Source: a virus. Taken from it: a stretch of 24,699 nt of DNA. How positions within the stretch are numbered: the first letter of the stretch is position 1; each line of letters begins with the position of its first letter. Below the pieces are notes generated by a model. It searched no databases, was not told the DNA's origin, and saw only the letters and a list, made by a program, of their open reading frames with translations. The stretch is taken from positions 1-24,699 of IMG/VR virus record IMGVR_UViG_3300017952_002888; one strand, written 5' to 3'. Position numbers and translations under genes: made by a program. Shown in pieces: positions 5,873-24,160 of this stretch.

Positions 5873-7274
5873 TCTCAAATCCCTCGGAGTTCTTTAAGTA
5901 AAAATCTCTTGTTTCCAACTCTTTTACAGTAGCAATATTAAACTTGTAATTGAAGTTTATGTAATCGCTTCCTTCTAGTCCAGCACCGTGTCTAGCGACA
6001 ATGGGAACCAATTTCCTATTTCCTCTATCGGGACCATCATTCGCTACTTCTTCCTCACTCTTTTCCTTTAATATACTGAAACTGGTACAAGTTTTGAGAA
6101 TACCATCGCTTCCAGCAACAACATCTGTAGATTCTCTTGTAATACCATCTCTATTCAATTGAATAAAAGATACGATTGGAACATCATATTTAACAGCAAA
6201 GTTGTGAAGGTCCATCATACTAAAGGCTAGTAACTGGTATTCCTTCATGCTATCATTGATTTCGCCATGATCGGTTACTTTGAAATAGTCATATATGATT
6301 ACACAATCATTAACTCGACCTGTTTCATCGAATCCAACATCACGATAAATAAAGTTTCTAATGATACCTAGAATTGTGGCAAACTTTGTTCCAGAAACGT
6401 TAACGTATTTGTAGTTCATTTCTTTGAATTTTTTAGCTGCCTCTCTGACTCTTCTTGTTTCTTCTGGGTCTTTAATATACTTTCCGGTTGATATCTTCTC
6501 AATATCTACACCGCTAAGACAAGAAATCATTCTGTCATTATGATCATCTTTCCCCATCTCAGTATCGACGATAAGAGTAGGAATGTCGCGAGAAGCTATA
6601 TTCATGCATAGAGCATCAGCAGTAAAACTTTTACCGACCTTCATTCTCGCTCCGATAAGATCAACACATTTCCTTCTGAGTCCACCACCAATTGCCTTAT
6701 CAAACCACTTCCATCCGGTGGAGATACCAATCATATCTACCGGATTAGCTTCTTTTTCGGCAAGGTATTCATCGATACTATCTGCGGGACGGATAGCCTT
6801 ATTATCAGATTCTTTATATATTTGCGAAGTAAAATCAAGAACTGGAGTCTCAATCAAATTAATGATATCGAGAATTGGCTCGCTACCGCTAACGTCAGAT
6901 AAAGCCTGCTTAATTCTATCTGCTAAAACAGCACCCTTATTCGCAAAGAGTAGCTTTGTTAGTTTAGATGCTTGAACTTCTGCATTTGCACGAGTGATTG
7001 GCATAGAAAAAAGAGATCGGATAAAACCAATCTCTTCATCATTTGCAATCTCTTCATAAAAGCCAAGTTCTGTTGCAGTAGATAATATAGACGTTAAATC
7101 AATCTCTTCTGAATTTTGAAAAATCTTATCAAAACATTTGAATAGCCTTTGGTTATTAACGTCATAAAAGGCTTGTGGTTCTATATAATCTATCTCATAG
7201 AAGAAATCTACCCCGTACTGGCATAGTCCAGCCAATACTGCATTTTCTGCTGCTGTGTTTTTCAACTCTGTCAT
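5838..7274 (-). CDS. dnaB: Replicative DNA helicase (DnaB-type)
   Basis: Hexameric helicase that unwinds the fork and recruits primase. Residues 1-110 are the DnaB N-terminal helical domain (ENAVLAGL, VNNQRLF). STGWKWFDKAIGGGL starts the RecA-fold motor near 185. Walker A is GARMKVGKS (208-216), with a Glu in VDTEMGKDD near 239 and a Walker B-like strand VIIYDYFKV. QLNRDG fits the region that contacts DNA. A TTG 15 bases upstream would also open the frame, but the ATG at 7274 sits 3 bases from the upstream stop and follows GGGGTG. That choice gives 478 residues, close to bacterial DnaB. The primase gene overlaps its 3' end. Confidence 0.92.
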   Translation of the reverse strand: MTELKNTAAENAVLAGLCQYGVDFFYEIDYIEPQAFYDVNNQRLFKCFDKIFQNSEEIDLTSILSTATELGFYEEIANDEEIGFIRSLFSMPITRANAEVQASKLTKLLFANKGAVLADRIKQALSDVSGSEPILDIINLIETPVLDFTSQIYKESDNKAIRPADSIDEYLAEKEANPVDMIGISTGWKWFDKAIGGGLRRKCVDLIGARMKVGKSFTADALCMNIASRDIPTLIVDTEMGKDDHNDRMISCLSGVDIEKISTGKYIKDPEETRRVREAAKKFKEMNYKYVNVSGTKFATILGIIRNFIYRDVGFDETGRVNDCVIIYDYFKVTDHGEINDSMKEYQLLAFSMMDLHNFAVKYDVPIVSFIQLNRDGITRESTDVVAGSDGILKTCTSFSILKEKSEEEVANDGPDRGNRKLVPIVARHGAGLEGSDYINFNYKFNIATVKELETRDFYLKNSEGFENDSSGTDIQDS

Positions 7275-7276
7275 TT

Positions 7277-7807
7277 TCACCCCAAACAATCATTACACTT
7301 CGTTCCGTAATCTTCACCAATATAAAGTTCCTGAGGAATCTCAAAAGGACTTCCACAATCGGTACATTTTACTCTAATATTTTTTGCCTTCGGTTTTTTA
7401 ATCGGCTTGCTTTCAGCTTTATGCTTTTGATGATCCTCGTCCCTTCCTATAGAATTATAGTCTTTAGGATTGAACATATTTGGTCTATTTTCAGAAATTA
7501 CCGATCTTGATTCCCTTGTTCTGATGGGGTCGTTGAAATCATTTGCGTAATAATCGGTATCGACTTCATCAGTTTCGACTCTCATTTCATGATAGACTTT
7601 TTTATCAACAAGAAGATCTTCCAGAATTGATAATAGGTCATCATCCGGTTCTCCACCATCTTCAGGAATTAGCTTAAAAATCTTATTGCAGATTTTGCTA
7701 GCCTGTTCTCTTGACTCTTCCGGCACTAGCGAGATTCCGATATCAATGAATTCATTATCGCCTAGTTTACACCCTTTTTTTATCAAATTAAGTATCTTCT
7801 CTTTCAT
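7277..7807 (-). CDS. Hypothetical protein with C-terminal zinc ribbon
   Basis: 176 residues, family not recognised. The N-terminal half (1-75) is predicted helical and acidic. The middle (75-145) is polar and probably disordered, with a KPIKKPKAKN basic stretch. The end carries CTDCGSPFEIP and KCNDCLG, a CxxC...CxxC zinc ribbon. It is coupled to the helicase gene (gap of 2 bases) and overlaps the upstream gene by ATGA. By position it could be a replication accessory or helicase-loading factor, but nothing in its sequence shows this. Confidence 0.75.
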   Translation of the reverse strand: MKEKILNLIKKGCKLGDNEFIDIGISLVPEESREQASKICNKIFKLIPEDGGEPDDDLLSILEDLLVDKKVYHEMRVETDEVDTDYYANDFNDPIRTRESRSVISENRPNMFNPKDYNSIGRDEDHQKHKAESKPIKKPKAKNIRVKCTDCGSPFEIPQELYIGEDYGTKCNDCLG

Positions 7808-16457: not shown

Positions 16458-16625
16458 TTATTTATCTATAGTTATCTTGAATCCTTTTTTACAGGAAACG
16501 GTAATCTGTTTATCGTTTTCAACAAAATCAAATTGATCTATTATGCTTTTGATAATTTCCGCTTCCTTTTCATCAACTCCAAAATAACTAAGAACCGTCT
16601 TAATTATCGAGTTTGTTATACCCAT
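16458..16625 (-). CDS. Small hypothetical protein
   Basis: 55 residues beginning MGITNSIIKTVLSYFGVDEK. An N-terminal amphipathic helix is followed by a charged helix and a final beta hairpin (KQITVSCKKGFKITID). The frame is open 90 bases further upstream, but that extension overlaps the neighbour's whole middle, while GGAG is 8 bases before the ATG at 16625. It overlaps the preceding gene by 26 bases and is the last gene before the terminator. Function unknown. Confidence 0.65.
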   Translation of the reverse strand: MGITNSIIKTVLSYFGVDEKEAEIIKSIIDQFDFVENDKQITVSCKKGFKITIDK

Positions 16626-16802: not shown

Positions 16803-17048
16803 TTATTCACCCTCGCTATTATCTTTTAACCATCTTTGAACAGCTTCAAGAAAGGCGATTGCTAGTGGTCCGACAACTCCCCAGCTAACGTCCTGTAACA
16901 TTCCAGTCGCTACAGCAACAGCGGAAACGATACCGGCAATTGCGGCAGTTCTCAAAACCTTTAGTACGTCTTTTTTATTGATAGTCCCGAAAGGCGAATC
17001 TGATGCACCAAAACTACCAACCAAGATTTTCCAAATATTATTTATCAT
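16803..17048 (-). CDS. Holin-like small membrane protein
   Basis: 81 residues with two likely transmembrane helices: 31-51 (VLRTAAIAGIVSAVAVATGML) minus its ends, and 54-73 (VSWGVVGPLAIAFLEAVQRW), joined by a tight turn. A polar N-terminus and a short charged tail (RWLKDNSEGE) flank them. Size and layout match class II-type holins, which form pores in the inner membrane at lysis. No endolysin is seen next to it, so the holin call rests on topology alone. It overlaps the TM/coiled-coil gene by 11 bases. Confidence 0.6.
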   Translation of the reverse strand: MINNIWKILVGSFGASDSPFGTINKKDVLKVLRTAAIAGIVSAVAVATGMLQDVSWGVVGPLAIAFLEAVQRWLKDNSEGE

Positions 17049-17400
17049 TATTTGCCTCTTCTTTTAGTTTGTTTATATCTCTCTCAAGAGTATAGAGTCT
17101 CTTTTCCGTTTCTAGCTTCCAAGTCTCCCAATCTTTAGACGCAAAGTTCCAAGGGGAATTTTCTATAATGATACTCTTAATATCCTCTTTCCCCAACACT
17201 TTTCTGTCCAAAGCATTGACAGCGGCTAAAACTTCTGAGGGTTTAGTAATTTCAAGTTCTTTTCTAACTTCTGCCATTTGTACTTGAGTATTTTGCAGTG
17301 TTGATGCTACCCAAACTAAAACGGCAGTTACTATACCCATTAAGCCTCTACCAAACCAAAGTTCAACCTTAGAGACTTGGACGATTTGTTGATCAATCAT
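17038..17400 (-). CDS. Membrane-anchored coiled-coil protein
   Basis: 120 residues. One hydrophobic helix lies at about 17-36 (GRGLMGIVTAVLVWVASTLQ). It is followed by a polar linker and a C-terminal coiled coil at about 86-116 (WKLETEKRLYTLERDINKLK). One TM segment plus coiled coil next to a holin-like gene suits a spanin-like or holin-partner role, though spanins usually carry the coiled coil in the periplasm and come as pairs. A strong site, GGAGG, precedes the ATG by 5 bases. Confidence 0.65.
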   Translation of the reverse strand: MIDQQIVQVSKVELWFGRGLMGIVTAVLVWVASTLQNTQVQMAEVRKELEITKPSEVLAAVNALDRKVLGKEDIKSIIIENSPWNFASKDWETWKLETEKRLYTLERDINKLKEEANNDK

Positions 17401-17418: not shown

Positions 17419-18105
17419 TTATATTCCAGTAATTTCAGCGTAGTCGTAGTTGTTACCAGAAGTAGCAACAGCGTAGTCTACGAAGTCTACCAAGAATACA
17501 AGTTCACCCGGAATTGCTCTAGTTGGAATAGCTCCATCTGCTGGCTTATCAGTCGCATTACCATCGACAAGATCCCACATAAATGTAGTACTTAGTGTAG
17601 ATGGAGTTCCTGCTGCTGTAAGAGCAGCATTTAGCCAGTTACTACGTGAAGCAATAACAGCACCGTTCTTGTCACGACCAGTATAGCTAAATCTATGTGC
17701 TCTCCAAGCGGTTAGCAACTTAGCTCCAAAGTCGTGCTGAAACTCGTTAATAGAACGCACGTGATTATCTGCACCCATGAACAACAGAGTATTGTCAGAT
17801 ACTCCAGAAATTGATGTGCTACCACGTGAGAATAGATATGTCTCTGATCCTAGAGTAGACGCATTATAAGCAAACGTACCAGCCGTAAGAGGCTTGTGAG
17901 TCTTATAAATGTGTGTGCCAGAATCGAACTCTTGTGGAAGAGTTTTAATGTCTTTATCGTCTGCAAGTGCATCGATAATCAAAAAACTTTTTGTCAAACT
18001 TCCAGCACCTGCTGGAGAGTTCATAATAGTACCACCGTAAGTTTGCTTAGTAAAACTTCCACCTGAAGTGTTGTTTACGTGACTATTATTTGATGGTGTA
18101 GTCAT
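17419..18105 (-). CDS. Putative virion structural protein
   Basis: 228 residues, rich in S, T, G, A and N, with no catalytic motif, signal peptide or membrane helix. The N-terminal 35 residues look disordered. Beta-rich blocks follow (GTHIYKTHKPLTAGTFAYN, SETYLFSRGSTSISGV). I infer a virion protein (decoration, tail or fibre) from composition and from its own promoter plus GGAGG 8 bases before the ATG, which suggest high expression. A TTG five codons upstream is excluded because the GGAGG abuts it. The mRNA leader can form a 9-bp stem across the start. Confidence 0.65.
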   Translation of the reverse strand: MTTPSNNSHVNNTSGGSFTKQTYGGTIMNSPAGAGSLTKSFLIIDALADDKDIKTLPQEFDSGTHIYKTHKPLTAGTFAYNASTLGSETYLFSRGSTSISGVSDNTLLFMGADNHVRSINEFQHDFGAKLLTAWRAHRFSYTGRDKNGAVIASRSNWLNAALTAAGTPSTLSTTFMWDLVDGNATDKPADGAIPTRAIPGELVFLVDFVDYAVATSGNNYDYAEITGI

Positions 18106-18166
18106 AGGACTTTCCTCCAATAAATAATTTCTATTTTTTCCGTTGTTTCCTAATAAAAAAGTCCTA
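18105..18166 (-). promoter_or_regulatory. Inverted repeat able to mask the start codon
   Basis: TAGGACTTT (18166-18158) and AAAGTCCTA (18113-18105), read in the mRNA direction, are perfect 9-base complements 44 bases apart. The second arm fills the gap between GGAGG (18118-18114) and the ATG and includes the A of the ATG. Two G-U pairs and one A-U can extend the stem into the GGAGG. It could control translation or stabilise the 5' end. Confidence 0.5.
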
Positions 18167-18178
18167 CTTTCCTACTCT

Positions 18179-18208
18179 ATTATACACATTTAGCATTAAA
18201 AACACTAA
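18179..18208 (-). promoter_or_regulatory. Promoter of the structural/lysis-like unit
   Basis: Perfect TATAAT (18184-18179) preceded by AAATGTG. The -35 side is only TTAGTG or TAGTGT (17-18 base spacing), far from TTGACA. The start near 18172 gives a leader of about 67 bases. The -35 region overlaps the end of the sigma-like gene. Confidence 0.55.
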
Positions 18209-18221
18209 TTTTTTAGTTTTT
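18198..18221 (-). terminator. Weak AT-rich terminator at the end of the sigma-like gene
   Basis: Minus-strand ACTAA and TTAGT with an AAAA loop, extended across one mismatch by A/T pairs, are followed by T5. The stem overlaps the stop codon. Low stability makes it doubtful. Confidence 0.3.
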
Positions 18222-18690
18222 CTATGCAATTATCGTACTTTTTCATAATTTTATAGAGTGTCGTATTGTGTTTCTTGGAAAGTTCCGTAAAGGTTTTTCC
18301 ATTGACGACACGATCAAAAACAAGCTCTTTCTCGCTACTTTTTAGTCCGTCAAGAATCTCGTTAATGCTTGGATTATTAGATCTATAATCCATAAAAACA
18401 TCATCGTTTACGCTTCTTTTTTTGCCCTCACTTTTTGTTTTCTCGCATAGCTTTCTAAGGTTATTGTTGAGAGAGTTATACAGATAGGTACTGACTTTAC
18501 CTCTTTTCCCATTGTGTAATCTCCAAACTCTAAATAGAGTATATCCGATCTCAGATTCAAGATCCTGAGGATCTAGGTATCTGCTATATTTTTCGCTAGC
18601 TCTATAAACCATAGCTTTTATTTGTTCGTCATTACGCATTTCCTCAAAACTAGAAAAATTCTCAAGATTCGACATACTTTGTAACCTCAT
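18205..18690 (-). CDS. Sigma-70-family factor, small (ECF/gp55-like)
   Basis: 161 residues with the two core sigma regions. Region 2 lies at about 22-86, with DPQDLESEIGYTLFRVW followed by a GKVSTYLYNSLNNNLRKL helix (compare DLVQE...FRAWLYRIARN in ECF sigmas). Region 4 lies at 112-160, with SSEKELVFDRVVNGKTFTEL and a final helix that fits the -35-reading HTH. It would direct host RNA polymerase to phage promoters, as T4 gp55 does for late genes. An ATG at 18675 (GAGG at 9 bases) is an alternative start giving 156 residues. It overlaps the upstream gene. A terminase small subunit or other HTH protein is less likely. Confidence 0.72.
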   Translation of the reverse strand: MRLQSMSNLENFSSFEEMRNDEQIKAMVYRASEKYSRYLDPQDLESEIGYTLFRVWRLHNGKRGKVSTYLYNSLNNNLRKLCEKTKSEGKKRSVNDDVFMDYRSNNPSINEILDGLKSSEKELVFDRVVNGKTFTELSKKHNTTLYKIMKKYDNCIEKLKN

Positions 18691-19033
18691 CTATTACCCT
18701 TTCTTTAACTTTTTTAGTATCAAACAGTTTACCAAAACCAATGAAAAAGGAGTAGTTACCTAAAATATCTAACCCCTCTACCCCCTCTATATTACTTACG
18801 ATATCCAAAAACTCTCCGGTTCCTATATCAAAATCAGTATAGCAAACAAAACAATCCCAACGTTTCGAAGGTCTCATCGGGTCGTCTTTATGATATGGGC
18901 CAACTGGAGTAAAAACAACACTCTTTGCGTCTAAGTCTATTATTTTATCAAACGAGATTTCATTATCGTTTTCTATTTCGCTCAATGCCTGATGTTCAAG
19001 TTCGGCATTCCAGCTTTTCCAAACTAATTTCAT
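18662..19033 (-). CDS. Hypothetical protein
   Basis: 123 residues, soluble, alternating strands and helices. It contains SVVFTPVGPYHKDDPMRPSKRWDCFVCYTDF in its centre, with residues H, D, C and C that might bind metal, and a helical C-terminus (KKVKERVIDEVTKYVES). No known motif was recognised. It is coupled to the upstream gene by ATGA and overlaps the sigma-like gene. Confidence 0.7.
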   Translation of the reverse strand: MKLVWKSWNAELEHQALSEIENDNEISFDKIIDLDAKSVVFTPVGPYHKDDPMRPSKRWDCFVCYTDFDIGTGEFLDIVSNIEGVEGLDILGNYSFFIGFGKLFDTKKVKERVIDEVTKYVES

Positions 19034-19326
19034 TGAAGATATTCTCCTCTCCTTACGGCATCAATCGGAGTAATGATTCTCTTCCTTTTATTGTAGGCTT
19101 CCGTAACTAGGCTTTTTATTAGCGTCTCTGCTCCACTAATATTATTACTATCATAATAACTGCTCGACTCTTCAATTAAAGTATCCACAGTCTTTTCGTC
19201 ATATATGCCAATTATCAATGAGGCGGCGTCTAAAGGATCTCTCGTGTTTTTTATTTCACAAGAAATGGTTCCACATTCATGCAGCCTAAAACTTAATGTA
19301 GGTAGGTTTTCTATTGCTTCATCCAT
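19030..19326 (-). CDS. Hypothetical protein
   Basis: 98 residues: N-terminal strands (LSFRLHECGTISCEIKN) and helical remainder ending in a basic stretch (YNKRKRIITPIDAVRRGEY). Two cysteines are close together (C18, C23). No membrane segment. It overlaps both neighbours by 4 to 8 bases, so it is part of the same translation-coupled run. Function unknown. Confidence 0.7.
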   Translation of the reverse strand: MDEAIENLPTLSFRLHECGTISCEIKNTRDPLDAASLIIGIYDEKTVDTLIEESSSYYDSNNISGAETLIKSLVTEAYNKRKRIITPIDAVRRGEYLQ

Positions 19327-19804
19327 TACTGATCACCCAAGCTACAGCTTTAGAGATTTCACTCAATTCGTCTATCTCTTCCTTTTTTAAGATTTTGTAG
19401 TTACCGTCAGGAGAAATGGCAATTTTGAAGAGGTTTTTTATTGACTCAGTAAACCCTTCATACCTTTTCTCAAAAGAAACTAAACTTCCATATTCGTTGA
19501 AAGAATCAACTAAGTGTTCGAAAACCTCTTGATTAGCTGCCCCCTCTTGAATCTTTTTGACGTTCTGAGAAAACTCATTAAAGAATATAGCAAGCTTAAC
19601 TCTATCGAAATCCGAATAGTTAAAATCGTCAATCTTACTTTCTTTCACTATCTCAAGAGTTTCTTCGTCAGGAGTTGGAATATTGACAACCGCAGAGACT
19701 TTAGTCAAATTATCAACTAAGACTGTACCATAGTCAACTATCGGTCCTCTATAATAAAATAGAATCAGGAGTATTCCTAAAAATCCTCTAAACTTACTAT
19801 TCAT
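19319..19804 (-). CDS. Membrane-anchored hypothetical protein
   Basis: 161 residues. A short hydrophobic segment near the N-terminus (FLGILLILFYY, about 8-18) after a basic start (NSKFR) suggests a membrane anchor or uncleaved signal. The remainder is acidic and helical, most simply on the outer face of the inner membrane. No enzymatic motif is seen. It shares one base with the upstream stop (TAATG) and is the second of three adjacent membrane-anchored small proteins downstream of the peptidase. Confidence 0.7.
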   Translation of the reverse strand: MNSKFRGFLGILLILFYYRGPIVDYGTVLVDNLTKVSAVVNIPTPDEETLEIVKESKIDDFNYSDFDRVKLAIFFNEFSQNVKKIQEGAANQEVFEHLVDSFNEYGSLVSFEKRYEGFTESIKNLFKIAISPDGNYKILKKEEIDELSEISKAVAWVISNG

Positions 19805-20079
19805 TATTCCTCCTCATTTAACAATGGAAAAACCTTATCAAGAGCAGCAAGTGCCTTCGTCTTTTCTCCTCTTTCAAGGCATGAGTGTAGGGCAGTAAAC
19901 TTACTAACTGCATCTACAAGATTATAATGACTAGCTTCTGGATCAACCATCACTTCGTCATCAGTGCTTTTTATTTTGCTAATCTTATCCTTCATAAAAC
20001 TAAAGATTTTACCAAAAGGCACAAAACTAGAAAGAATTAACAATCCACCACCAACTAAAACAATAACATCAAGGTTCAT
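19804..20079 (-). CDS. Single-pass membrane hypothetical protein
   Basis: 91 residues from the ATG at 20079, preceded by AGGAG at 7 bases. A longer frame opens 42 bases upstream without a good ribosome site. A transmembrane helix lies at 4-22 (DVIVLVGGGLLILSSFVPF). A basic juxtamembrane stretch (KDKISKIK) follows, which by the positive-inside rule places the helical C-terminal part in the cytoplasm. That part ends in ALAALDKVFPLLNEEE, possibly an assembly helix. It overlaps the Cys-cluster gene by 11 bases. Confidence 0.7.
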   Translation of the reverse strand: MNLDVIVLVGGGLLILSSFVPFGKIFSFMKDKISKIKSTDDEVMVDPEASHYNLVDAVSKFTALHSCLERGEKTKALAALDKVFPLLNEEE

Positions 20080-20362
20080 ATCTCGCTCCTGTATTTTCTG
20101 ATTTGCATTTACATTCTCCACTGGCTAAACACAGGCAAGGAGTTTTATGTCCGTCTCCATGAGTTATAACACCACTGCCGTCACAAGGGCAATCTTCAAT
20201 ATCTAATTCAGCAAACTTTTCAGTAAAAGAATCCGCTATTACCATAACAGCATCTTTCTGATACATATCAATTTGCTCTTGGGTAATTCCCGGTTGCTTC
20301 ACTAAAAAACCGAAAACAAATAGTAGAATTATACCAGCACTTATAAAAATATCTTTTTTCAT
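20069..20362 (-). CDS. Membrane-anchored protein with DnaJ-like Cys cluster
   Basis: 97 residues. A basic start and hydrophobic helix at 6-21 (FISAGIILLFVFGFLV) form a signal anchor. Residues 25-55 are helical. Then CPCDGSGVITHGDGHKTPC, CLC and ECKCK bring six cysteines (C58, C60, C76, C78, C84, C86) with histidines, reminiscent of the CxxCxGxG zinc module of DnaJ. Metal or redox binding in the periplasm is likely if the anchor is N-in. The ATG overlaps the TGA of the peptidase gene (ATGA), so it is translated with it. Confidence 0.75.
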   Translation of the reverse strand: MKKDIFISAGIILLFVFGFLVKQPGITQEQIDMYQKDAVMVIADSFTEKFAELDIEDCPCDGSGVITHGDGHKTPCLCLASGECKCKSENTGARYEP

Positions 20363-21303
20363 CCTATCATATCCTCCATAGAATCAAACATATCGAAGTC
20401 TACTTTTTGAGGTGGGAATCCGTCAAAACTAGATAATGCGTAAGCTTGTCTTTGACGCAACATTCCTGCGGCATCTGACTCGCGAATCCAGAATGATCCT
20501 TCAGGCTGGTCTAATACTTTAGGTCCACTATTCCATCTCCCCCAACTGTTAATGATTAAAAATAGGGTTTCATTAAGCCTTTGTCTTGTATCGTCAACAG
20601 CGGCCCAACACATACAGTGATTCCAGCTTGTAGTTCTTCTAGCGATTCCATGCTTATCTCTTCTAGAGGAGAATCCATAGTTACTCCCTACTGTCAGAGC
20701 GTATCCATTCGCAATAGCATCACGTGCTTCTTCTACGGTAGTAACAAGTGAGGCTGTTTGGAAAGAGTGTTCTTTTGCCTTTTGAACAACCTTATCAGGA
20801 ACTCCACGAGATCCCCAACCCATACCAATTCGAGCATTATATTCTGAAAGATCAAGATCAATGTCTTCATAATTTTTTCTGAGTAAAAGTCCAGCGTCAC
20901 CCGTAACAAATCTTGCTGCACGTACAACAGACATTCCCTGTCCAGAATGCCCACGAGCACCATAAATGGGTTCTGTAGCTGATCTAACCAAAAACGACTC
21001 TGCTTCTCCACTTACAATTTCTGCTGCTCTGGTAAGGTCTGCCGCATTTCTAGTCCCGTGACTTGTGCAATCACCAGTGTCTTGTTTTTCTGTCTCTCCA
21101 AATTTAGGATCATATTGCTTAATCAATTTATGAAGCAAAACAAGCTTACCTTTACCTGAATCTTCAAGATTATACGCTGCCGCACCAAATAAAGGATGCT
21201 TCGCTTCTCCTAAAAACTCATCTAATTCTTTTGCACCAAAGGGAGTACCCGGAAGTCCGTTTTCGTATGCTCTACGAATATCTAAAGGTGTATCAAATGG
21301 CAT
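20359..21303 (-). CDS. Papain-fold (C1A-like) cysteine peptidase
   Basis: 314 residues carrying the papain catalytic set in order. Q74 and C79 are in QDTGDCTSHGT, H229 in WNHCMCW, and N252 with W254 in LIINSWGRWNSG (compare papain NSWG). Q and C are separated by four residues rather than five. No signal peptide or membrane helix is seen, so the protein starts out cytoplasmic. An N-terminal stretch of about 70 residues may act as a propeptide. Possible roles are virion maturation, virion-borne entry protein, or attack on host proteins; the sequence does not decide. GGAG lies about 8 bases before the ATG. It overlaps the glycosyltransferase gene by 11 bases. Confidence 0.82.
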   Translation of the reverse strand: MPFDTPLDIRRAYENGLPGTPFGAKELDEFLGEAKHPLFGAAAYNLEDSGKGKLVLLHKLIKQYDPKFGETEKQDTGDCTSHGTRNAADLTRAAEIVSGEAESFLVRSATEPIYGARGHSGQGMSVVRAARFVTGDAGLLLRKNYEDIDLDLSEYNARIGMGWGSRGVPDKVVQKAKEHSFQTASLVTTVEEARDAIANGYALTVGSNYGFSSRRDKHGIARRTTSWNHCMCWAAVDDTRQRLNETLFLIINSWGRWNSGPKVLDQPEGSFWIRESDAAGMLRQRQAYALSSFDGFPPQKVDFDMFDSMEDMIG

Positions 21304-22366
21304 TAATTATCTCCTGTGATGTATTTTTCCATGAATACTTATTAGCGGTAAAGACACCACCAACATTAGGAGATAATGTACCATCCTGCTTTGTAACATG
21401 GATTGTTCTCAAATATTGTATTAATTGATCCATAGAATCTTCATTAAAATCAGCCCATCCCCCTTGACCCTTGAACCAAATATTGTCTACGGCTGGAACA
21501 TTTTCTGAACCACAATCAATCAAAAGCGAATTATCGTGATTGCAAAATTCTGTATGAGCGGAGTAGTTAGTCGCAATAACGTGTTTTCCACACGCCATCA
21601 TTTCCAAAAGTTCAAGATTCCAACCTTCTGCTCGGGCTGGAAACACACCACAATCGGCCTGTCTCATTATATTATACACATCCTCATGTGATCTTTGCCT
21701 TGGTATTATATTTATTTTACGGCCTAATTTGGATGTTTTGTAGGCGTTTTGCCACGACTCATTAGTGTAAGGCATTCCCGGCTGTAGAAAAGGATTATAT
21801 GAGAGCATCCAAAGTTCGACATTATCATCATCGTTAAATGCTTTATTGAAAGCTTCTAATAGGATATCATGCCCCTTACGGATTTCCCACTTTCCACAAT
21901 TTATAAATACTGTGGAATCTCTTGAGATAGGATTAGCAGAAGAAAAAAGGGAGGAGTCAACACCGAGAGGAATCACGTGAATTTTTGACGAATCAAAATC
22001 TGGTAGGTTTTTCTCAACTACCTCTTTTGCCCATTTTGAACACACGAATAATCTATCACAATGTCTCAGGCTAGATTTCTCTAGAGGACTGAAAGTATCT
22101 AGTTCAAAAATAGGGAATCCGATATTCTCACCATGACCAACGTGAGTTTGTAGGGAATCCTGATGCCACAAGCTTATGCAGGGGGCTTCCAAATTTGGTT
22201 TCTGTTGACGTTCAATTGCTTCTACAATAAAATCGTCTTGAAACTCAACTTCGCTAGAAACAGGATATAGAGTTATATCATGTTCTTTTGAGAGTTCTTT
22301 AATTATATTGTATGCCGCAATGCCATATCCAGTCGAACAGATCGGGGCTATAATATTAATCTCCAT
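21293..22366 (-). CDS. Glycosyltransferase, GT4-like (GT-B fold)
   Basis: 357 residues with two Rossmann-like halves. The N-terminal nucleotide-fold start is IIAPICSTGYGIAAYN (5-20). The donor-binding half begins at INCGKWEIRKGHDILLEAF (155-173). It contains GVFPARAEGWNLELLEMMACG (240-260), including the E-x7-E pair E247/E255 typical of GT4. It transfers a sugar from an activated donor to an unknown acceptor, perhaps phage DNA, a virion protein or a host surface glycan. It overlaps both neighbours by 11 bases. Confidence 0.88.
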   Translation of the reverse strand: MEINIIAPICSTGYGIAAYNIIKELSKEHDITLYPVSSEVEFQDDFIVEAIERQQKPNLEAPCISLWHQDSLQTHVGHGENIGFPIFELDTFSPLEKSSLRHCDRLFVCSKWAKEVVEKNLPDFDSSKIHVIPLGVDSSLFSSANPISRDSTVFINCGKWEIRKGHDILLEAFNKAFNDDDNVELWMLSYNPFLQPGMPYTNESWQNAYKTSKLGRKINIIPRQRSHEDVYNIMRQADCGVFPARAEGWNLELLEMMACGKHVIATNYSAHTEFCNHDNSLLIDCGSENVPAVDNIWFKGQGGWADFNEDSMDQLIQYLRTIHVTKQDGTLSPNVGGVFTANKYSWKNTSQEIINAI

Positions 22367-22733: not shown

Positions 22734-23216
22734 TTATAGTTCAAAAACCTTTACATTAATATCCTTGTCCACCCAACATTCTATAATCATACGCTCAATC
22801 GCACACCAATTACCACCGGCAAGACCTGATCCAAATTTTGGGCAATAAATCTCGTCGGGAGAATGCTTTCCGTTCATGTTTGCACGCACCTTCCGCATAC
22901 ACTCCATTAAGGCAAAATATCTTAACGGATGCTTGCCATCAACTCCTCTCTGTGCAATCATATTTGATACAATATTACCGTCTTCTATCCATGAGTTATT
23001 GATAGACCCCAGAGGATCAGCATTCCCACACTTTTTCATACTGGCGAGAAAATTATGGTAATCCTGTTTTGGCTTTTCTGAGTATGTATCTATAGCTAGA
23101 ACAAATCCAGCACCCCACGCTCCAATATCATTACAGACATGTGGTATCATTACTTTTCTATCTTTGGGGAGATTCTGAAATAGGTCTCCTTTGATATACT
23201 TTAATTCTGCTGCCAT
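22734..23216 (-). CDS. Macrodomain protein (TARG1/Poa1-like)
   Basis: 160 residues, a single macrodomain that binds ADP-ribose or related nucleotides. KGDLFQNL (9-16) opens the fold and NDIGAWGAGF (29-38) forms the first ligand loop. CPKFGSGLAGGNWCAIE (125-141) is the second ligand loop. The end, DINVKVFEL, is the last strand. It resembles the TARG1/Poa1 group rather than MacroD. The aspartate that TARG1 has in GCGLDR is alanine here (GSGLAGG). Possible roles are removal of ADP-ribose from proteins or DNA (host DarT-type defence), or salvage of ADP-ribose phosphates. It overlaps the glycosyltransferase gene by 16 bases. Confidence 0.85.
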   Translation of the reverse strand: MAAELKYIKGDLFQNLPKDRKVMIPHVCNDIGAWGAGFVLAIDTYSEKPKQDYHNFLASMKKCGNADPLGSINNSWIEDGNIVSNMIAQRGVDGKHPLRYFALMECMRKVRANMNGKHSPDEIYCPKFGSGLAGGNWCAIERMIIECWVDKDINVKVFEL

Positions 23217-24160
23217 TTCTCGACTCTTTCTTTTATTTGATCTCTAAAAACCCTTGGATACAAGAATGATTTATCAAGATCCTTCATATATCTATGAGTT
23301 TTGATTATGTTTTCGGTCGTGATCATCTTTGAGGCTTCATCAAGAGTATCATAGAAGAAAGGATAATCCTTACCAAGATACTCTTCAAATGCCTCGTGCC
23401 TATTCAAAAGCAGTGGTGTATTTCTTGCCAAACACTCGACCACTCCAGTAGATGCTGCCGCATCATAAACTTTCATGAATCCTATGTTCTCGGATAAAAA
23501 TTCGTCAAAAACTTCATTATTGAGATAATCTACAGGTGTCCACACTTGAGCATCAAGCTTTTTATCGATATACCCCCAATCTGGAGACATCTCTTCTATT
23601 TTTTTTCTATAGTAGTACGAATACTGAAAATTCCCCGGAAACCATGCTTTGAAAAACTCCGTGTCTACATCTATTATAGCATAGTAGTCCCTCAAAAACG
23701 AGCCTAATTGTATAATTCTTTTCCTATTATTTGAAAAAAATCTCTGTTCGTTCCATTTGAGTAGGGGAAATTCTGTGGGGTAAAAAACCTTAGCTACCGG
23801 AACATCAACCTGACTCTCGATAAATCTCTTTAAGTAGTCGGTCATTACAAATAAACCGAGACAATGCTTTAAGGATTCCTGAAATGCGGGCCTCGCTAAA
23901 ATTGACTGAGGAGTATGACAGTTATCCCACCACGTAGGACAGTTTGGAGGAATGTGAAAAAATCCAACCCAAGGTTCTTTATACGGAATTTTTCTAAATC
24001 CACCCGAATAATAGTTGTGAAAATCCCAAGAATGCGTTCTTTCAATAAAGTCATCAAACAGAATTCCATTCTTACTATGAAGCGGTCTGAGAGCATTTAT
24101 CGCAACTTTCCAGCCCGATCTGTGACTATCAAAACCCTTGCAGTTAGATAGATTAAGCAC
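23201..24160 (-). CDS. Glycosyltransferase, GT-B-like
   Basis: 319 residues. The C-terminal half has VYDAAASTGVVECLARNTPLL (231-251), a donor-binding motif of GT-B enzymes with E242, followed by NRHEAFEEYLG. The N-terminal half (GFFHIPPNCPTWW, LFVMTDYLKRF) is the acceptor side. The start is GTG at 24160, overlapping the upstream TAG (TAGTG), with GGGAGGAG about 10 bases before. It probably acts with the second glycosyltransferase at 21293-22366 on the same acceptor; donor and acceptor are unknown. Confidence 0.75.
   Translation of the reverse strand: MLNLSNCKGFDSHRSGWKVAINALRPLHSKNGILFDDFIERTHSWDFHNYYSGGFRKIPYKEPWVGFFHIPPNCPTWWDNCHTPQSILARPAFQESLKHCLGLFVMTDYLKRFIESQVDVPVAKVFYPTEFPLLKWNEQRFFSNNRKRIIQLGSFLRDYYAIIDVDTEFFKAWFPGNFQYSYYYRKKIEEMSPDWGYIDKKLDAQVWTPVDYLNNEVFDEFLSENIGFMKVYDAAASTGVVECLARNTPLLLNRHEAFEEYLGKDYPFFYDTLDEASKMITTENIIKTHRYMKDLDKSFLYPRVFRDQIKERVEKWQQN

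Follow-up and report, generated by a model that had tools for sequence, protein, structure and literature searches.

What does a phage do with a papain-like cysteine peptidase encoded in one run with small membrane-anchored proteins? The question is raised by the IMG/VR record IMGVR_UViG_3300017952_002888 (24,699 nucleotides, hereafter the window), which encodes DNA polymerase, primase, helicase, RNR, and PhoH, with every listed gene on the minus strand. Two further records, IMGVR_UViG_3300017949_002507 and IMGVR_UViG_3300023172_000037, are about 99.95% identical to it over the 12.3 kb compared. The original prediction joined seven overlapping genes, from the peptidase to a sigma-like factor, into a single undescribed module. 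The seven open reading frames (ORFs) are present on the minus strand and overlap as it described, with 4-nucleotide ATGA overlaps between the peptidase gene (PEP) and a six-cysteine gene (CYS) at 20359-20362 and also at 19030-19033, a TAATG junction at 19804, and remaining overlaps of 8-29 nucleotides. Tight overlaps are ordinary in phages, so they are by themselves no proof of a module; the strong evidence is conserved co-occurrence. We find that PEP, CYS, MEMA, and MEMB form a real, widespread, and undescribed phage module. With moderate confidence we read this unit, usually together with HOL and often with a secreted thioredoxin, as a putative late host-lysis cassette of phages linked to Planctomycetota. 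The main genes are listed below; L-numbers (e.g., L010) label related loci.

20359..21303, minus strand: PEP, predicted C1A papain-like cysteine peptidase of 314 amino acids, leaderless, with catalytic residues Q74/C79/H229/N252 (AlphaFold2, Foldseek)
20069..20362, minus strand: CYS, signal-anchored six-cysteine protein; the CYS profile detects this gene and its counterparts in relatives immediately after PEP
19804..20079, minus strand: MEMA, protein with an N-terminal transmembrane (TM) segment (profile E 2.2e-6 before its inclusion; direct phmmer matches in 14 loci)
19319..19804, minus strand: MEMB, signal-anchored helical-bundle protein (E 1.2e-20 with the downstream-type MEMB profile of relatives only)
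16803..17048, minus strand: HOL, holin-like TM protein of 81 amino acids (profile E 4.3e-25, itself included; direct phmmer matches in 11 loci)

The peptidase and its anchored partners

PEP contains Q74, C79, H229, and N252 (in NSWG) in the order of papain, in agreement with the intact Q/C/H/N set that had been noted. The four residues are invariant in an alignment of 15 divergent relatives, where an N-terminal DSGKGK motif is mostly kept too, and of about 244 relatives with more than 250 amino acids, 228 keep the motifs Q..G[DST]C, W.H, and [NQ]SWG. The AlphaFold2 model of PEP (pLDDT 82.8, pTM 0.88) has 140 Foldseek matches in the PDB at E<=1e-3, and the best matches listed are xylellain (E 2.3e-9) and papain/cathepsin-type enzymes. 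A profile search with PEP gives Cwp84 (E 0.0016), and the structural neighbors in BFVD include phage proteins labeled N-acetylmuramidase and peptidoglycan-binding. On fold and residues, PEP is filed as a divergent branch of C1A, with predicted proteolytic activity. It resembles the C1A papain peptidases (xylellain, cathepsins B/S/K, and C. difficile Cwp84) in fold and Q/C/H/N active site, and the cell-surface protease Cwp84 in profile as well, but differs from known C1A peptidases in pairwise identity (about 15%), in its own N-terminal DSGKGK motif, and in its phage operon context.

Profile and fold were needed to identify PEP because single-sequence searches failed. The window PEP has no match in Pfam or PHROGs, phmmer against the PDB returns noise only, and tblastn against 50,697 deposited phage records returns no match. 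Among PEP relatives, Pfam Peptidase_C1 gives sub-threshold matches in 4 of 15, with a best E of 0.012. Distant relatives were first found with a degenerate DNA pattern for QDxGDCxSHG, and an alignment-based scan yielded 27 PEP loci of 35-100% identity. The family comprises at least 580 loci in IMG/VR, in a leaderless form (most members) and a signal-anchored form.

Two relatives carry what we read as intein-like insertions, one exactly before the catalytic cysteine (GD|C; L031, 4518-5915) and one within the NSWG...NSGG motif (L017, 1930-3873). Inteins favor conserved active sites of important proteins. In another locus a second protease stands beside the module, a subtilisin-like S8 peptidase (L040, 6451-7404; Pfam E 4e-48) whose gene immediately precedes MEMB-PEP.

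CYS has the six cysteines and the N-terminal hydrophobic segment originally ascribed to it. Its motif is half-DnaJ-type, C.C.G.G..HGDG....C.C in the window and C-x-C/CxxC-G-x-G...GDG...C-x-C in the family, and the window protein matches a family profile that excludes it (E 1.2e-5). Often a secreted thioredoxin is joined to CYS or takes its place. In L023, L028, L034, and L046, CYS and a thioredoxin domain form one protein. An exported thioredoxin with a gene of its own (WCPYC, CSPC, or the like) is encoded nearby in L030, L044, L045, L073, and L075, and in the large phages L011 and L014, where CYS is without thioredoxin domain, an exported thioredoxin is encoded elsewhere in the record. The pairing of exported thioredoxins with a catalytic-cysteine enzyme suggests an oxidizing compartment.

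MEMA and MEMB each carry an N-terminal TM segment, as the original prediction said. For MEMA, ATG 20079 is a more likely start than GTG 20121, to which the ORF stays open. An N-terminal hydrophobic segment is present in all 145 MEMB sequences, in 149 of 150 MEMA sequences, and in 143 of 148 CYS sequences, and several MEMB relatives have a lipobox. The AlphaFold2 model of the MEMB family is a helical bundle without a fold match in the PDB, and the idea that MEMB is a known cysteine-protease inhibitor was dropped on that result. MEMB and CYS are one natural fusion protein in L035 and L036. Through this fusion an early iterative MEMB profile drew in CYS sequences, and the profile was rebuilt with most of them left out. 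Weak library matches to XkdF protease (CYS) and DUF1896 (MEMB) lie below cut-off and were dropped. No Pfam or PHROG model matched PEP or its partners.

The linkage of these genes is near-obligate. Among distinct, well-flanked IMG/VR loci, PEP lies within 4 kb in 53 of 53 cases when the scan starts from CYS and in 52 of 52 when it starts from MEMB, in scans whose reach is largely limited to the nearer relatives within a single clade. The membrane genes are thus not found apart from PEP in these relatives, a separation that had been named as telling against the module. Starting from PEP, MEMA is found in 87% of loci, MEMB in 82%, CYS in 80%, and HOL in 64%. The order is PEP-CYS-MEMA-MEMB in the window, L034, and L252, and MEMA-MEMB-PEP-CYS in L010-L017 and L037. 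In the closest relatives HOL immediately precedes PEP (3-nucleotide gap in L252); in the window it is displaced. The conserved unit is therefore PEP-CYS-MEMA-MEMB, usually with HOL: the peptidase and the envelope-anchored proteins do belong together, but the seven genes are not a single module, as the sigma-like and 123-amino-acid genes belong to another block. Nor does the fixed stoichiometry once read from the PEP/CYS overlap hold, since the gap between the two genes varies across loci (median 156 nucleotides).

Probable planctomycete hosts and prophage copies

A scan of 84,980 species gives 18 PEP loci, mostly in Planctomycetota, with the isolate Blastopirellula marina DSM 3645 among them. 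In a census by phylum, PEP relatives occur in 14 of the 392 Planctomycetota genomes, with E values of about 1e-11 or lower. The corresponding number for Bacteroidota is 1 of 395, namely the metagenome-assembled genome (MAG) chosen as center, and three other matches there are weak (E 3e-4 to 8e-4). With the centers excluded, the numbers are 13 of 391 versus 0 of 394 (Fisher P 1e-4).

In the prophages L044, L072, L073, and L075, found in B. marina and three other planctomycete genomes, MEMB, PEP, thioredoxin, and TerL follow on one strand, and the portal gene is next after TerL in L044, L072, and L073. This is the position of the lysis genes in lambda. The neighbors of PEP also led us to reject a prohead protease: in most loci PEP is linked to anchored partners, and in prophages it precedes TerL instead of lying between portal and capsid. 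The claim of planctomycete hosts rests on the census and the prophages; for the window's own clade, Planctomycetota are the probable hosts, judging from relatives.

Complete HOL-MEMB-PEP-thioredoxin modules also occur in planctomycete chromosomes (L046 6632-9912, also L085; L077 7871-11060, reoriented). They may be a remnant prophage, a domesticated system, or a satellite.

Lysis and competing explanations

The module likely acts at the envelope. Among the functions that the original prediction had proposed, lysis is the one we favor, at about an even chance. A small holin-like TM gene beside a soluble or signal-anchored hydrolase, just upstream of the terminase in prophages, resembles the S-R-Rz cassettes of lambda, and the leaderless and signal-anchored forms of PEP parallel canonical and signal-anchor-release (SAR) endolysins. 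Also in favor of lysis are the PHROG holin in the L035 module, the BFVD neighbors labeled as muramidase or peptidoglycan-binding, and a search of ten related records with positive controls, in which Amidase_2, phage lysozyme, SLT, NlpC/P60, M23, M15_4, and CHAP gave no above-cut-off match. Unlike in the S-R-Rz and SAR cassettes, the hydrolase is predicted to be a C1A protein peptidase and belongs to no known kind of peptidoglycan hydrolase, and we know of no counterpart of CYS/thioredoxin and MEMA/MEMB in holin/endolysin cassettes. PEP shares the papain superfamily with CHAP and NlpC/P60 phage lysins and with C1-like BFVD proteins of uncultured phages. CHAP and NlpC/P60 belong to other clades than PEP, however, and to our knowledge no MEMB/CYS partners have been described for them. 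In the literature, we found no planctomycete-phage lysis system or papain endolysin of this kind.

The activity, substrate, and timing of PEP and the role of each membrane protein in lysis are proposed as follows. Late in infection, the small holin-like/TM proteins would permeabilize the inner membrane. Leaderless PEP would then enter the periplasm, whereas signal-anchored prophage PEP would arrive by the Sec route, and membrane-anchored MEMB and MEMA would position or restrain the enzyme. The exported CxxC/thioredoxin partner could keep the active-site cysteine of PEP reduced, open disulfides in the cysteine-rich wall proteins of Planctomycetales, or both, and PEP would cut the cysteine-rich protein layer. 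Cysteine-rich YTV wall proteins are unique to Planctomycetales (PMC8567305). If these proteins were the substrate, the presence of a protease and that of a thiol partner would each be accounted for. A more specific proposal, plausible but on balance less likely than not, is that planctomycete phages achieve lysis by both reducing and digesting a disulfide-linked, cysteine-rich protein wall, with a papain peptidase delivered to the periplasm, a zinc-finger or thioredoxin thiol partner, and a lipoprotein/TM pair devoted to the task.

Such a mechanism, if true, would be distinct from those of all peptidoglycan-based endolysins and would bear on the long-running argument about whether planctomycete walls contain protein or peptidoglycan. 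A papain enzyme, an exported thioredoxin, and anchored partners together make a concrete prediction of how the planctomycete envelope is breached. Since neither Pfam nor PHROG matches PEP or its partners and PEP is unmatched in the deposited phage records, what appears to be a core function in an abundant group of phages has been left unannotated. PEP is a marker for recognizing this group, and possibly a lysis-enzyme tool for a phylum with difficult cell lysis and genetics.

Several observations weigh against lysis. Planctomycetes have lysozyme-sensitive peptidoglycan (PMC4432640), and a protease alone should therefore not suffice. The hydrolase search covered seven families, in records that may be fragments, and M23 gave one sub-threshold match. 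The HOL family has no Pfam or PHROG holin match and is holin-like by size and TM pattern only. Most PEP members are without a signal, and no thioredoxin was found in the window's near-identical counterpart, a record of 54 kb. Large phages carry the module near RNR and PhoH rather than beside the terminase, the window module lies upstream of RNR, and at least two modules (L046/L085, L077) stand alone among host genes. In addition, the nearest MAG matches of the window's clade are binned as SAR202, Lokiarchaeota, and Flavobacteriales. We did not take these taxa as hosts, as phage contigs are easily mis-binned.

Small membrane-anchored and lipobox-bearing proteins are typical of exclusion systems and are present in this module, which occurs in prophages and also, standing by itself, in chromosomes of hosts (L046/L085, L077). 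The module could thus serve superinfection exclusion or envelope remodeling, being expressed in infection or lysogeny and cleaving or masking receptors against other phages. We consider this unlikely, because near-universal presence across very different phages and a same-strand site before the terminase in prophages point to a core late function.

A role in entry appears slightly less likely still. PEP would then be packaged or tail-associated and would digest the protein layer while the genome is delivered, and the membrane proteins would be its partners or inhibitors. The absence of a signal peptide from PEP in most phages fits this explanation, as do the genes around it in three loci: by our reading, PEP lies just upstream of tail-tube-like genes in L081 and L082, and tail-fibre-like genes follow in L014. 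However, the partners bear export or anchor signals, unlike virion proteins, and signal-anchored PEPs do not fit packaging.

It is improbable that PEP is a cytosolic protease for host takeover, degrading host proteins or maturing phage proteins, with an incidental linkage to the membrane genes. Most PEPs are leaderless and PEP lies beside RNR and PhoH in large phages, as such a role would allow, but the linkage to three exported or anchored families is near-obligate over many loci, signal-anchored PEPs exist, and an exported thioredoxin partner of a catalytic-cysteine enzyme suggests an oxidizing compartment.

The sigma-like block and other neighbors of the lysis candidate

The remaining genes of the region are listed below.

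19030..19326, minus strand: soluble protein of 98 amino acids; no relative found beyond near-identical contigs, and membership in the module not supported
18662..19033, minus strand: s18662, protein of 123 amino acids from a separate conserved block, found in 12 of the 46 loci and in 63 of the 78 further ones, at variable positions relative to PEP
18205..18690, minus strand: sigma-like factor, a member of that separate block (match to PHROG 351, a sigma factor, at E 1.5e-7)
17419..18105, minus strand: p17419, conserved protein following the sigma-like gene, conserved in relatives
16458..16625, minus strand: m16458, small soluble protein, likely starting at ATG 16625 (phmmer matches in 7 loci)

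The sigma-like gene is found 0.7 to 5.4 kb from PEP, on either side (-5.4 to +1.7 kb), in 10 of 46 loci, and near PEP in 36 of 78 further loci. It was not found near most other PEP loci of the 46, nor near PEP in prophages and stand-alone modules. The closest relatives have the order GT1, 123-amino-acid protein, sigma-like gene (where detected), other genes, HOL, PEP, CYS, MEMA, MEMB, RNR, so that the sigma-like gene lies upstream of PEP with other genes and HOL between. Compared with these relatives, the PEP-CYS-MEMA-MEMB block and the block from the sigma-like gene to HOL are swapped in the window, and the contiguity of PEP block and sigma-like gene is therefore best read as a rearrangement. 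The relay from proteolysis to sigma once suggested for this locus, in which PEP would cut a membrane anchor and free the sigma-like factor, has the nearness of the two genes in those 10 and 36 loci in its favor, but is very improbable given the varying distance and side of the sigma-like gene, the loci where it was not found nearby, the soluble papain fold of PEP, and the lack of a recognized anti-sigma.

Single-protein scans of the window with Pfam and PHROG give names for the sigma-like factor and a glycosyltransferase only. Glycosyltransferase-like genes at 21293-22366 and 23201-24160 adjoin the module, and 65 of the 78 related loci keep GT1. A 99-nucleotide gap (18106-18204) separates the sigma-like gene from p17419; the sole other sizeable gap in the region precedes RNR. 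A TATAAT-like element on the minus strand within 18106-18204 is a possible promoter.

Other small proteins occur near PEP. Relatives of m16458 sit near MEMA/MEMB, e.g., after MEMB in L273, and m16458 resembles L036 9158-9370. A PHROG holin (E 1e-4) lies within the L035 module. In the clade L010-L017, where HOL was not detected, a small multi-TM protein near PEP (L010 9776-10024, with similar genes in L011-L017) matches Transgly_assoc (GlsB/YeaQ family, E 1.5e-8) and is a candidate holin substitute. In L034, the gene for a TM protein with a PAS-like domain (7200-7775) immediately precedes the holin-like gene and occupies the place that 17038-17400 has in the window.

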